DNA from: Alphaproteobacteria bacterium
Lineage (GTDB): Bacteria; Pseudomonadota; Alphaproteobacteria; UBA9219; RGZA01
Direction: 5' to 3'
DNA length: 64,000 nucleotides
NCBI GenBank assembly: GCA_033762625.1
Contig: JANRLI010000021.1
Location: 1-64,000 of the forward strand
The notes under the pieces were generated by a model. The model searched no databases. It was not told the origin of the DNA and worked only from the letters and a program-made list of their open reading frames with translations. Positions 43,722-53,356 of this stretch are shown piece by piece; the stretch's first letter is position 1; the number at the start of each line of letters is the position of its first letter. A program made the position numbers and the translations under genes.

Positions 43722-43741
43722 ATGCCCGCTTGCGCGGGCAG
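43722..43741 (+). repeat. Single REP-like hairpin after infC
   Basis: TGCCCGC-ttgc-GCGGGCA, a 7-bp perfect stem. It resembles one half of the palindromic elements at 49539 and 53227 (TGCCCGCN4GCGGGCA) and may be a solitary relic of the same repeat family or simply the infC terminator; no T-run follows. Confidence 0.5.
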
Positions 43742-48126: not shown

Positions 48127-49080
48127 ATGCCTGTAGAAGCTTATGTAATTGCGATTGTGGTATTGGCGGTTGTGTTTATCCGCAGCGGAATTGTTGTGAT
48201 TTCCCAAGGAATGGAATACACGTTGGAAAGCTTTGGGCGTTATACACGCACGATGGAACCCGGCTTGCACTTCATTGTGCCCCTGATTGAGCGCGTTGGC
48301 GCAAAAATCAACATGATGGAACAGGTGATGGATATTCCATCCCAGCAAATCATTACCAAAGATAACGCGATGGTAACGGCAGACGGCGTTGTGTTTTACC
48401 AGGTTCTGGATGCCGCAAAGTCAGCCTACGAAGTCAGCAATCTCCGTGTTGCGATTTTAAATTTGGTGATGACCAATTTGCGTACCGTGATGGGTTCGAT
48501 GGATCTGGATGAACTGCTTTCACAGCGCAACAAAATCAATGCAGAGCTAATGCACGTGGTGGATGAAGCAACGGGCCCATGGGGCTTGAAATTAACCCGT
48601 ATTGAAATTCGCGATATCCAGCCGCCGCGCGATTTGGTGGATAGCATGGCGCGCCAGATGAAGGCAGAACGTGAACGCCGTGCGCAAATTCTGGAAGCCG
48701 AAGGTTACAAGCAAGCTGCTATTTTGAAGGCAGAAGGCCAAAAACAGGCTGAAGTTCTGAGCGCCGAAGCCCGCAAGCAAGCCGCATTTTTAGATGCCGA
48801 AGCGCGCGAACGCTCCGGCGAGGCGGAAGCCAAGGCAACCCAGATGGTTTCCGACGCCATTGCCAAAGGACATGTTGGCGCATTGAATTACTTCGTTGCG
48901 CAAAAGTATGTTGAAGCATTCAAGCACATGGCGGACAGCCCAAACCAGAAAATGGTGTTCATGCCGATGGAGATGAGCGGCCTTATCAGTTCGATTGGCG
49001 GCGTTGCCGAACTGGCAAAGGATGCGTTAAAGCAAGGCAAGATGCCGGATGTAGCAGCTGGACCATGGAATAAGCAGTAA
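48127..49080 (+). CDS. qmcA: SPFH/band-7 stomatin-like protein (QmcA type)
   Basis: A 317-residue membrane-anchored scaffold. One N-terminal transmembrane segment (4-25) precedes the SPFH domain (GMEYTLESFGRYTRTMEPGL, DNAMVTADGVVFYQV). A long charged coiled coil with AEGYKQAAILKAEGQKQAEV repeats and a short C-terminal domain follow. Paraslipins of this kind form cages in the membrane with NfeD partners. Its stop overlaps the nfeD start (TAATG at 49078-49082), the usual coupling. Confidence 0.92.
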   Translation: MPVEAYVIAIVVLAVVFIRSGIVVISQGMEYTLESFGRYTRTMEPGLHFIVPLIERVGAKINMMEQVMDIPSQQIITKDNAMVTADGVVFYQVLDAAKSAYEVSNLRVAILNLVMTNLRTVMGSMDLDELLSQRNKINAELMHVVDEATGPWGLKLTRIEIRDIQPPRDLVDSMARQMKAERERRAQILEAEGYKQAAILKAEGQKQAEVLSAEARKQAAFLDAEARERSGEAEAKATQMVSDAIAKGHVGALNYFVAQKYVEAFKHMADSPNQKMVFMPMEMSGLISSIGGVAELAKDALKQGKMPDVAAGPWNKQ

Positions 49081-49532
49081 TGGAACAAACAATAACGGAG
49101 ATGCACATGCTGTATTGGCACTGGATTACCATTGGGTTTAGCTTGATGGCCATTGAAATGCTCGTCCCCAGCTTTTTCTTTTTATGGCTGGGCGCTGCTG
49201 CCATTCTAGTCGGGGCGATTATGTTCGTCGTTCCCGATTTATGGTGGAGTTATCAATGGACGCTGTTCGCCGTTATCGGCATTGGCAGCTTTTTTATTTC
49301 ACGCGCTGTGATCAAAAACAAGCCGGCATCCGCTGCGAATTTGCTGAATAAACGCGGAAAAATGCTGATTGGTAATGTGGTAACCATCGAAACAGCCATT
49401 GTGAATGGTAAGGGCAAAGCAAAAGTCGGTGACAGCGTATGGTCAGTCACCGGGCCGGATATGCCTGTTGGCGTAAGCGCCAAAGTGATTGGTGCAAATG
49501 GCACTGAATTAAAAGTCGAGAAAGCATCCTAA
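49080..49532 (+). CDS. NfeD-family membrane protein
   Basis: A 150-residue protein with two or three membrane segments (MLYWHWITIGFSLMAIEMLV, LWLGAAAILVGAIMFVV, WTLFAVIGIGSFFIS) and a C-terminal OB-fold (NKRGKMLIGNVVTIETAIVN ... VWSVTGPDMPVG). The partner of the upstream QmcA-type protein. Its stop codon overlaps the next possible ATG (TAATG, 49530-49534). Confidence 0.9.
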   Translation: MEQTITEMHMLYWHWITIGFSLMAIEMLVPSFFFLWLGAAAILVGAIMFVVPDLWWSYQWTLFAVIGIGSFFISRAVIKNKPASAANLLNKRGKMLIGNVVTIETAIVNGKGKAKVGDSVWSVTGPDMPVGVSAKVIGANGTELKVEKAS

Positions 49533-49538
49533 TGCACC

Positions 49539-49662
49539 GTCATGCCCGCGGAGGCGGGCATCCACGAATTTATTTACGAGAGTTTTCAAATATGAACTTT
49601 GGTGTTTTTTTTATACATATAAAAAAAGTAATCTCGTGGATGCCCGCCTCCGCGGGCATGAC
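49539..49662. repeat. MITE-like palindromic element, copy 1
   Basis: Two perfect 29-bp inverted arms (49539-49567 and 49634-49662) flank a 66-bp A+T-rich centre. Each arm is itself a hairpin, ATGCCCGC-ggag-GCGGGCAT type, and one end translates as the 'MPASAGMT' peptide typical of such repeats. It lies across the 5' end of the next gene. The arms match those of copy 2 at 53227 with one or two base changes. Confidence 0.9.
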
Positions 49663-50575
49663 AATTTTATTTTTTATTATAGGTCTATTATATTCACCGT
49701 ATAGCTATGCACAAGAAAGCGAAAGCAAGCGTTATAATTTTGGCGTTCGCCCACACCCACTTATAAGCGAAGCTGAAGAAAAATCTGACGAAACAGTAAA
49801 AAAAGAAAAGGAAGACGCGGAGAGTAAGGTCGAAGATAAAAAAGACGACGAAAAGAAGGAAGCTGCGGAAACAGTGCCCCCTGCCCCCGTTGCTGAAGCA
49901 CCTAAAGAAGCCCCTGCATTAGTTGATGGTGTTTATAGCCCCAAAGGCAAAGCGGCCGATGCCCCCAAAACCAACCCTAAGCATAATCATGAAAAAAGCA
50001 AAAAGGCCGAAGAATTAGTACGTTTTTTCATGGGTTCATGCCTTAAATTTTATGGTCGCAACAAGGAAATGATTGCCTATATGGACGCAAATTTTCCGCG
50101 CCTTGATACTGACCGTAAGGCTGATTTTGCGCCGGTGATTGGCGGAAATATAAATACGCAATATTGGGATATTGCACGCGGTGATGTGTTTTACATGCTC
50201 GCCAAGGATACCAGCAGCGGGAAATGCGACATTATTGCCAAGGATGGCGCTTCGCATTTTGTGCATAAGGAATTAAAAGCTGTAATGGATGGATTAACCA
50301 TTACCAAAATCCTGATGACTAAAACAGAATATGAAAAGGTTGCGTCACAAAACAAGGAAGTTTCGATGGTGAGTATTCTTGGCCATCCCTTAGAAAAGGA
50401 ATTAGCGATTGTTGCAACAACCAAGATTAAAGACATCGGCGATAATCTGGATGCGCAGATAACGCTGTTCACCGTGCCGCAGGAAACTGTGGATGTGATT
50501 GATGTAACACCCAAGGAAGCAGCGCCAACAGCGACAGAACCTGCCGCAGCTGGCGGTGGGTTTTCAAAAGATTAG
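49592..50575 (+). CDS. Secreted protein of unknown function, 5' end built from a palindromic element
   Basis: About 327 residues from the ATG at 49592, where GAGAG lies 9 bases upstream; ATGs at 49532 (overlapping the nfeD stop) and 49658 are alternatives. A hydrophobic signal-like segment (MTILFFIIGLLYSPYSYAQ) follows. Then comes a highly charged Glu/Lys linker with Pro-rich part (about residues 60-140 of the long frame) and a globular domain (ELVRFFMGSCLKFYGRN ... GDVFYMLAKDTSSGKCDI ... TVPQETVDVIDV). Two Cys may form a disulfide. No family recognised. Everything before the signal core is encoded by the inserted palindromic element. Convergent with valS. Confidence 0.65.
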   Translation: MNFGVFFIHIKKVISWMPASAGMTILFFIIGLLYSPYSYAQESESKRYNFGVRPHPLISEAEEKSDETVKKEKEDAESKVEDKKDDEKKEAAETVPPAPVAEAPKEAPALVDGVYSPKGKAADAPKTNPKHNHEKSKKAEELVRFFMGSCLKFYGRNKEMIAYMDANFPRLDTDRKADFAPVIGGNINTQYWDIARGDVFYMLAKDTSSGKCDIIAKDGASHFVHKELKAVMDGLTITKILMTKTEYEKVASQNKEVSMVSILGHPLEKELAIVATTKIKDIGDNLDAQITLFTVPQETVDVIDVTPKEAAPTATEPAAAGGGFSKD

Positions 50576-53226: not shown

Positions 53227-53356
53227 GTCATGCCCGCGAAGGCGGGCATCCACGAATTTTCTTACTGTTAGTGACTGTTTTTATAGGTATTTAATGGCCA
53301 AGAAAATACTAAAAAGATTAAATAAAGCCGTAGATGCCCGCCTTCGCGGGCATGAC
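53227..53356. repeat. MITE-like palindromic element, copy 2
   Basis: Arms at 53227-53255 and 53331-53356 are inverted repeats matching at 25 of 26 positions, each able to fold as ATGCCCGC-gaag-GCGGGCAT. The 75-bp centre is A+T-rich and only weakly like that of copy 1. It fills most of the 145-bp gap between popZ and valS and may form part of the valS leader RNA. Confidence 0.9.

Follow-up and report, generated by a model that had tools for sequence, protein, structure and literature searches.

A palindromic pair of CGTC-1 REP units inserted at the start of an exported-protein gene, and the association of such palindromes with small GIY-YIG nuclease genes

Analysis of a 64,000-nucleotide stretch of an alphaproteobacterial genome (the window) revealed a palindromic element in an operon, where it had been inserted behind nfeD and ahead of the gene that follows. 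The frame of that gene was open across the element, and the gene downstream of it was under purifying selection. Palindromic arms of the same type were associated with genes for a small, conserved GIY-YIG nuclease, and both short and nuclease-bearing copies were inserted as whole units. The best explanation as a whole, which we regard as probable without being secure, is that a pair of repetitive extragenic palindromic (REP) units was inserted and supplied the start of the gene, and that the family to which it belongs is moved by the GIY-YIG nuclease. What moves CGTC REPs was left open by the 2013 survey of these sequences, and a candidate enzyme at the same palindromes in many Pseudomonadota makes the question directly testable. 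Three exported-protein genes for which orthologues with and without the element are available also suggest a route from palindromic element to coding DNA, in which insertions are tolerated in the signal-peptide region and their product is cut off. The genome that contains the window is designated G000 (2.23 Mb); G001 and G002 are other species of the same genus.

Table 1. Coordinates of the features of the window discussed in the text
Feature	Position	Strand	Remarks
Palindromic mobile element; inverted pair of CGTC-1 REP units	49539..49662	+	tags outward, CCA tails inward, AT-rich middle
Left arm	49539..49575	+	includes REP unit GTCATGCCCGCGGAGGCGGGCATCCA at 49539-49564
Element middle	49576..49625	+	open loop; contains ATG 49592 and a weak Shine-Dalgarno-like stretch (GAGAG); codes for basic IKK ahead of the signal-peptide core
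Right arm	49626..49662	-	includes inverted REP unit 49637-49662; + strand encodes W-MPASAGMT
nfeD gene	49080..49532	+	upstream, same operon; in G002, 3 nt between the nfeD stop and the next start codon
Exported-protein gene	49592..50575	+	likeliest start in the element loop, 327 aa; alternative starts 49532, 49640, 49658
Predicted signal peptide MNFGVFFIHIKKVISWMPASAGMTILFFIIGLLYSPYSYA	49592..49711	+	from a hydrophobicity window; cleavage site inferred by eye
Second element copy	53227..53356	.	immediately upstream of valS, which is on the - strand

Structure and family of the element

The element was 124 bp long, with arms of 37 nt that were 92% complementary and an AT-rich middle of 50 nt between them. 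Folded as DNA it reached -52 kcal/mol, compared to -16 ± 3 kcal/mol in shuffled sequences (z -11.6; 0 of 200 shuffles did as well), and its RNA hairpin was calculated at -80 kcal/mol. An earlier note on this DNA had proposed a palindromic element with exactly these boundaries. Each arm was itself a small palindrome, TGCCCGCnnnnGCGGGCAT, with the layout GTC-ATGCCCGC-nnnn-GCGGGCAT-CCA.

The CGTC-1 consensus consists of a CGTC or TGTC tag, an 8-bp stem starting with AT, a 4-nt loop and a CCA tail, and the units usually occur as inverted dimers (Di Nocera, De Gregorio and Rocco 2013, PMC3733652). All of these characters were found here. The stem ATGCCCGC-GGAG-GCGGGCAT had 8 bp starting with A-T and T-A pairs and a 4-nt loop; a C preceded the left unit (CGTC), the right unit read TGTC on its own strand, and the unpaired CCA tail was present in both units as GGGCATCCA. 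Inverted pairs were repeated in G000 and G001. Judged by its sequence, this small mobile element consists of two CGTC-1 REP units in inverted orientation. It shared with the published family its alphaproteobacterial host, its occasional location inside genes and its variable spacers, the variability of REP-dimer spacers in both sequence and length being already known (PMC3733652). It differed in that the same arms were here found enclosing or flanking GIY-YIG genes, and in that three exported-protein genes of one genus had a copy in the signal-peptide region. The 2013 survey reported a dedicated transposase to be absent from CGTC REPs and their associations with transposase genes to be only fortuitous (PMC3733652). 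The lack of an associated mobility gene is the one character of CGTC-1 that did not hold here. That reported absence is not a structural criterion; the description of the family is revised by it and membership is not excluded.

The earlier note had likened the element to the palindromic elements found inside Rickettsia genes, and the likeness goes beyond analogy, as RPE-6 of Rickettsia conorii has been equated with CGTC-1, together with dRS3 of Neisseria (PMC3733652). As in the Rickettsia palindromic elements (PMC10969869), a palindrome had entered a working gene in frame and would be translated along with it, the presence of the element peptide in the protein being inferred in our case. An in-frame palindrome with an orthologue lacking the element was found for the window gene, for mlaC and for a BamB-like gene. 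In contrast to Rickettsia, the host was a member of a different alphaproteobacterial lineage, one known from metagenome assemblies; the element sat in a signal-peptide region, which is removed from the mature protein, and both empty and filled orthologues were available.

Elsewhere in the window, a lone TGCCCGC-nnnn-GCGGGCA hairpin followed a gene stop at 43722-43741. It had neither a CGTC tag nor a CCA tail and may be either a terminator or the remnant of a decayed REP.

Insertion before the exported-protein gene and its start codon

G002 had no element at this site: the gene followed nfeD immediately and encoded an ordinary signal peptide (MKFFVFAVLALFLLFQPAHA). Aligned with it, the window has the element in place of the start codon plus some three codons. 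An element was also present at this site in G001, where its right arm was read in the same frame as in the window (MSTMMLKKQKINKVNSWMPAFAGMTAIFVLMLMTSAQA). The frame from 49532 was open across the whole element into an ORF of 347 codons, with the hydrophobic core of the signal peptide beginning at the right edge of the element. For the rest of the gene, dN/dS was 0.08 to G002 and 0.13 to G001; on these ratios the downstream gene is under purifying selection and was not broken by the insertion. Thus the proposal of the earlier note that the element lies in frame and has rebuilt the 5′-end of the gene without breaking it was borne out, including by the comparison with an element-free relative that it had suggested.

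The gene was present in only three genomes, and the sequences of the relatives (L023, L024) were metagenome-assembled. Its product, the export of which is inferred, showed a weak similarity to the NMCC_0638 (lipo)protein family that just reached the cut-off in G001 but not in the window. G000 and G002 were the closer pair (85% DNA identity in the purH flank vs 78%), although the element was common to G000 and G001; whether it was lost in G002 or gained twice is unresolved. At the 3′-end of the same gene in G001 (L024, 3783-3960), the gene ran into a different inverted repeat (CCTCTCCCCTTGAGGGAGAGG...), such that repeat DNA was found at both ends of the gene.

Four in-frame ATG codons could start the gene: 49532, which lies 7 nt before the element, 49592 in the loop, and 49640 and 49658 in the right arm. 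Apart from the first of these, no in-frame ATG, GTG or TTG outside the element keeps the signal peptide. The next in-frame start after the right arm (49874) lies beyond the signal peptide. If the product is exported and begins at a usual start codon, translation must therefore initiate within the element or immediately upstream of it. Initiation downstream at an unrelated codon, which would have refuted the earlier note, is consequently excluded as long as the signal peptide is retained. Folding of the predicted mRNA gave a mean unpaired probability of 0.65 for ATG 49592, compared to 0.00 for ATG 49640 and 0.08 for ATG 49658, and G001 repeated this predicted pattern of an open loop ATG and paired right-arm ATGs. 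The Shine-Dalgarno-like match of the loop ATG was weak (-3.0 kcal/mol) and its G001 counterpart had none. A start in the loop supplies the basic IKK before the hydrophobic core, which a start in the right arm would not, and the G001 loop likewise encoded a basic stretch, KKQKINK. Translation most likely starts at the loop ATG 49592; this is inferred from the folding model and the encoded residues, without expression or N-terminal data. The earlier note had the right arm supply an ATG. In-frame ATGs are indeed present there, but by prediction they pair within the stem and the loop ATG is likelier. The interpretation of the note is thus supported, with the start codon moved.

Two further genes of G001 had a copy of the element at their start. 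In mlaC (PF05494) the copy lay at the start of the gene, with AAGGAG and an ATG inside its middle, and the product began MFLAKKSKLVDTRLRGHD-YKVILVILLSLLVIPAMAQA. The only good Shine-Dalgarno site and ATG of this gene lay inside the element, whereas the G000 and G002 orthologues had short signal peptides and no element. The other gene encodes a BamB-like lipoprotein, an identification that rests on the G000 orthologue (PF13360). Here a 123-bp copy was in frame within the signal-peptide region (MTIFNRAKKQS-[41 codons]-GIKLAVALIAIMLLLSGC), and the orthologues in G000 and G002 were again without it. Three genes of the genus, all for exported proteins, therefore held a copy before the hydrophobic core. 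The n-region of a signal peptide is nearly free in sequence and is later cut off. Copies are likely to survive in signal-peptide regions through tolerance, because almost any n-region is tolerated and removed; copies that destroyed a gene would have been lost.

In our reading, a CGTC-1 REP pair entered the operon behind nfeD and replaced the start codon and first few codons of the gene that follows. Translation would run from ATG 49592 through the right arm, and the element would contribute the basic n-region as well as the residues that lead up to the hydrophobic core. The element could instead be an intercistronic RNA hairpin (a stabiliser, attenuator or partial terminator), with translation starting at ATG 49658 and only Met-Thr coming from the element. 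That codon is close to the ancestral start in the G002 alignment, AATTTTATTTTTT follows the RNA hairpin, which is very strong, and valS (below) shows that ORFs extended into elements can be spurious, a caution already given for N-terminal REPs (Di Nocera 2013, PMC3733652). We nevertheless consider a mere hairpin unlikely. Both right-arm ATGs are predicted to be fully paired, the resulting MTILFFIIGLL would be without a basic n-region, and the G001 loop repeats the design of the window loop with a basic stretch of its own. The in-frame element after MTIFNRAKKQS in the BamB-like gene and the element-borne start signals of mlaC also speak for an element that supplies coding sequence.

Copies in the genome and its relatives

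When the 26-nt core was searched with ≤2 mismatches, it occurred in G000 as only four inverted pairs. G001 had about 26 core copies per strand, mostly in pairs 100-150 bp long, and no core copies were found in G002 at the same stringency. Three of the G001 copies were missing in G000 or G002 and the lengths of the host gaps matched (31/28, 64/56 and 165/167 bp). The arms of different copies were nearly identical, whereas their middles aligned with a score almost as low as that of shuffles (14.3 vs 13.5). By sequence comparison, the spacers of the copies diverge or differ, and we rejected the idea that the copies are simple copies of one 120-bp sequence. That the middle is captured host DNA was rejected as a general rule, as the gap lengths at the three intergenic G001 sites agree only when the insert is taken to be the whole element with its middle. 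Capture remains possible at genic sites; the window middle weakly resembled the start region of the G002 gene (about 1% of shuffles were as good), and the middle at the mlaC site showed no resemblance to the host start region.

A fixed target-site duplication was not found at the element copies. The outer flanks of 22 G001 copies (L034-L057) were often ATCC or AGAA (17 of 44 ends), which hints at a target preference. In L036, L038, L046 and others, the inner stem relied on G-T wobbles that form on only one of the strands (CGAGTTTACTT/AAGTAAGTTCG), from which the element appears to have a defined strand.

The second copy in the window contained the beginning of an ORF (MPAFAGMTEYMMEK...), and automatic ORF calling would extend ValS into it by MPAFAGMTEYM. 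A start of valS inside this element was rejected, as the G002 orthologue starts outside (MEKTYIAAD) and has no element before valS; the extension, judged from this comparison, is probably an over-extension. The ORFs beside L034, L035 and L037 likewise only looked element-started, an ATG just outside the element fitting the gene better.

GIY-YIG nuclease genes bounded by REP arms

One of the four G000 pairs (C2:125373-125745) enclosed an intact 97-amino-acid ORF (C2:125407-125697) with a GIY-YIG domain (PF01541, E 1.1e-16) and the conserved Tyr, Tyr, Arg, Glu and Asn of such nucleases. An alignment with G002 (C8:32312) showed that purH and the next gene, for an FkbM-family methyltransferase, adjoin there without the nuclease unit. 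Both flanks aligned to within a few bases of the junction, the site was free of REPs, and the whole unit including its arms was missing.

We took 90 related nuclease genes from 46 of 96 related genomes. A CGTC-1 arm was found within 350 bp of 34 of the 90, with both arms mirrored in 23, compared to 2 of 90 in the 350 bp beyond that distance. Inverted repeats were also sought without reference to a motif (score ≥14 within 150 nt of the gene); they were detected around 63 of 89 related GIY-YIG genes, mostly of CGTC type, and in 0 of 85 displaced flanks. Among 115 ORFs of the genus the sole scorer was the nuclease gene itself, leaving 0 of 114 others. Across the phylum, inverted repeats flanked 20 of 26 GIY-YIG genes vs 0 of 25 controls, and in a plasmid collection 10 of 12 examined records were flanked, among them Azospirillum lipoferum, Novosphingobium, Rhizobium, Sphingobium, Shinella and Aeromonas; a Neisseria gonorrhoeae record in this collection was a weaker match. 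The association test counted loci from related genomes and was not fully corrected for phylogeny. REPs prefer intergenic DNA, orphan genes have long intergenic flanks, and the earlier survey saw only fortuitous associations of transposase genes (PMC3733652), so the association might be a by-product of REPs gathering around dispensable, horizontally acquired small genes, the nuclease being unconnected. With a matched inverted pair directly around the gene in about 70% of cases and none in displaced flanks or around the 114 other ORFs, this is already disfavoured and looks very improbable.

The residues Y8, Y19, R29, E66 and N85, which we take to be catalytic by analogy with I-TevI, were 98-100% conserved in 56 flanked nucleases. 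Over these 56 genes, arm similarity rose with nuclease identity (from 0.26 to 0.87; Mantel rho 0.18, p about 0.0015). Eight nuclease genes were found in G001, where the flanking palindromes differed or none was recognised, and none of the eight had exactly the window-type arms despite the roughly 26 palindrome copies in that genome. To our knowledge, GIY-YIG nucleases are not known as transposases. We found no open-access PMC paper linking GIY-YIG with repetitive extragenic palindromic sequences (subscription journals and preprints lay outside the search), and the nuclease had no match in 50,697 phage records.

From this correlation we propose that GIY-YIG nucleases move or maintain CGTC REPs, a mobility role that is inferred. 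The element at 49539 would be a short, non-autonomous form (arm-middle-arm), and the complete form would have the same arms around a gene for a nuclease of about 97 amino acids. The nuclease would cut a target or palindrome copies, and an element would be copied in during repair; many such rounds could keep the arms alike while the middles differ. This resembles REPIN/RAYT, where short inverted palindrome pairs occur in many copies per dedicated enzyme gene and that gene is flanked by the same palindromes. The REPIN/RAYT hallmarks were not met, however, as the tag there is GTAG and the enzyme an IS200/IS605-like HUH/tyrosine transposase, whereas here the tag is CGTC and the enclosed gene a GIY-YIG nuclease (PF01541). 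More broadly, CGTC REPs, including RPE-6 and dRS3, may be a mobile system with a dedicated small GIY-YIG nuclease, each nuclease lineage being paired with its own palindrome: a CGTC counterpart of RAYT/REPIN with unrelated chemistry, probably copying by cutting and repair. We offer this generalisation tentatively, as plausible but still short of probable.

The main rival to nuclease-driven mobility is that the GIY-YIG genes are parasites of the REPs, of homing type, which use CGTC palindromes as insertion sites while something else moves the REPs. GIY-YIG domains are typical of homing endonucleases (the PF01541 match was accompanied by a weak match to a group I intron endonuclease model), and in A. 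lipoferum and Shinella the nuclease gene sat between multiple REP units. Insertion sequences are also reported to target REPs (PMC1525189). With free-standing GIY-YIG homing endonuclease genes the present genes share the Pfam domain and the conserved catalytic residues, and selfish behaviour is plausible; they differ in length (about 97 amino acids), in the lack of a separate DNA-binding domain, in being bounded by inverted palindromes and in their intergenic insertion, which is not into an intron or intein. A parasite would not readily account for the REP-free G002 site, from which the nuclease copy is missing together with its arms, or for arms that are mirrored close to the ORF and that differ, where recognised at all, among the eight G001 nuclease genes. 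The joint variation of arms and nucleases points the same way, though it would also fit a parasite adapted to its target. We judge parasitism to be rather unlikely and continue to prefer movement by the nuclease.

In Azospirillum lipoferum AZO_p3 (L235), a GIY-YIG gene with complete REP dimers on both sides separated sufB and sufC. Related Azospirillum plasmids were without this insert, and the operon junction was uninterrupted in related species. On a Planktothrix agardhii plasmid (L244), a GIY-YIG gene with a weak flanking repeat (score 16) lay between an MmeI-type restriction enzyme gene and the DISARM gene drmA. In both G000 and G001, a second palindrome, GTCCCAGCnnnnGCTGGGACCCAG, flanked a single nuclease gene and also had extra copies elsewhere in the genome.
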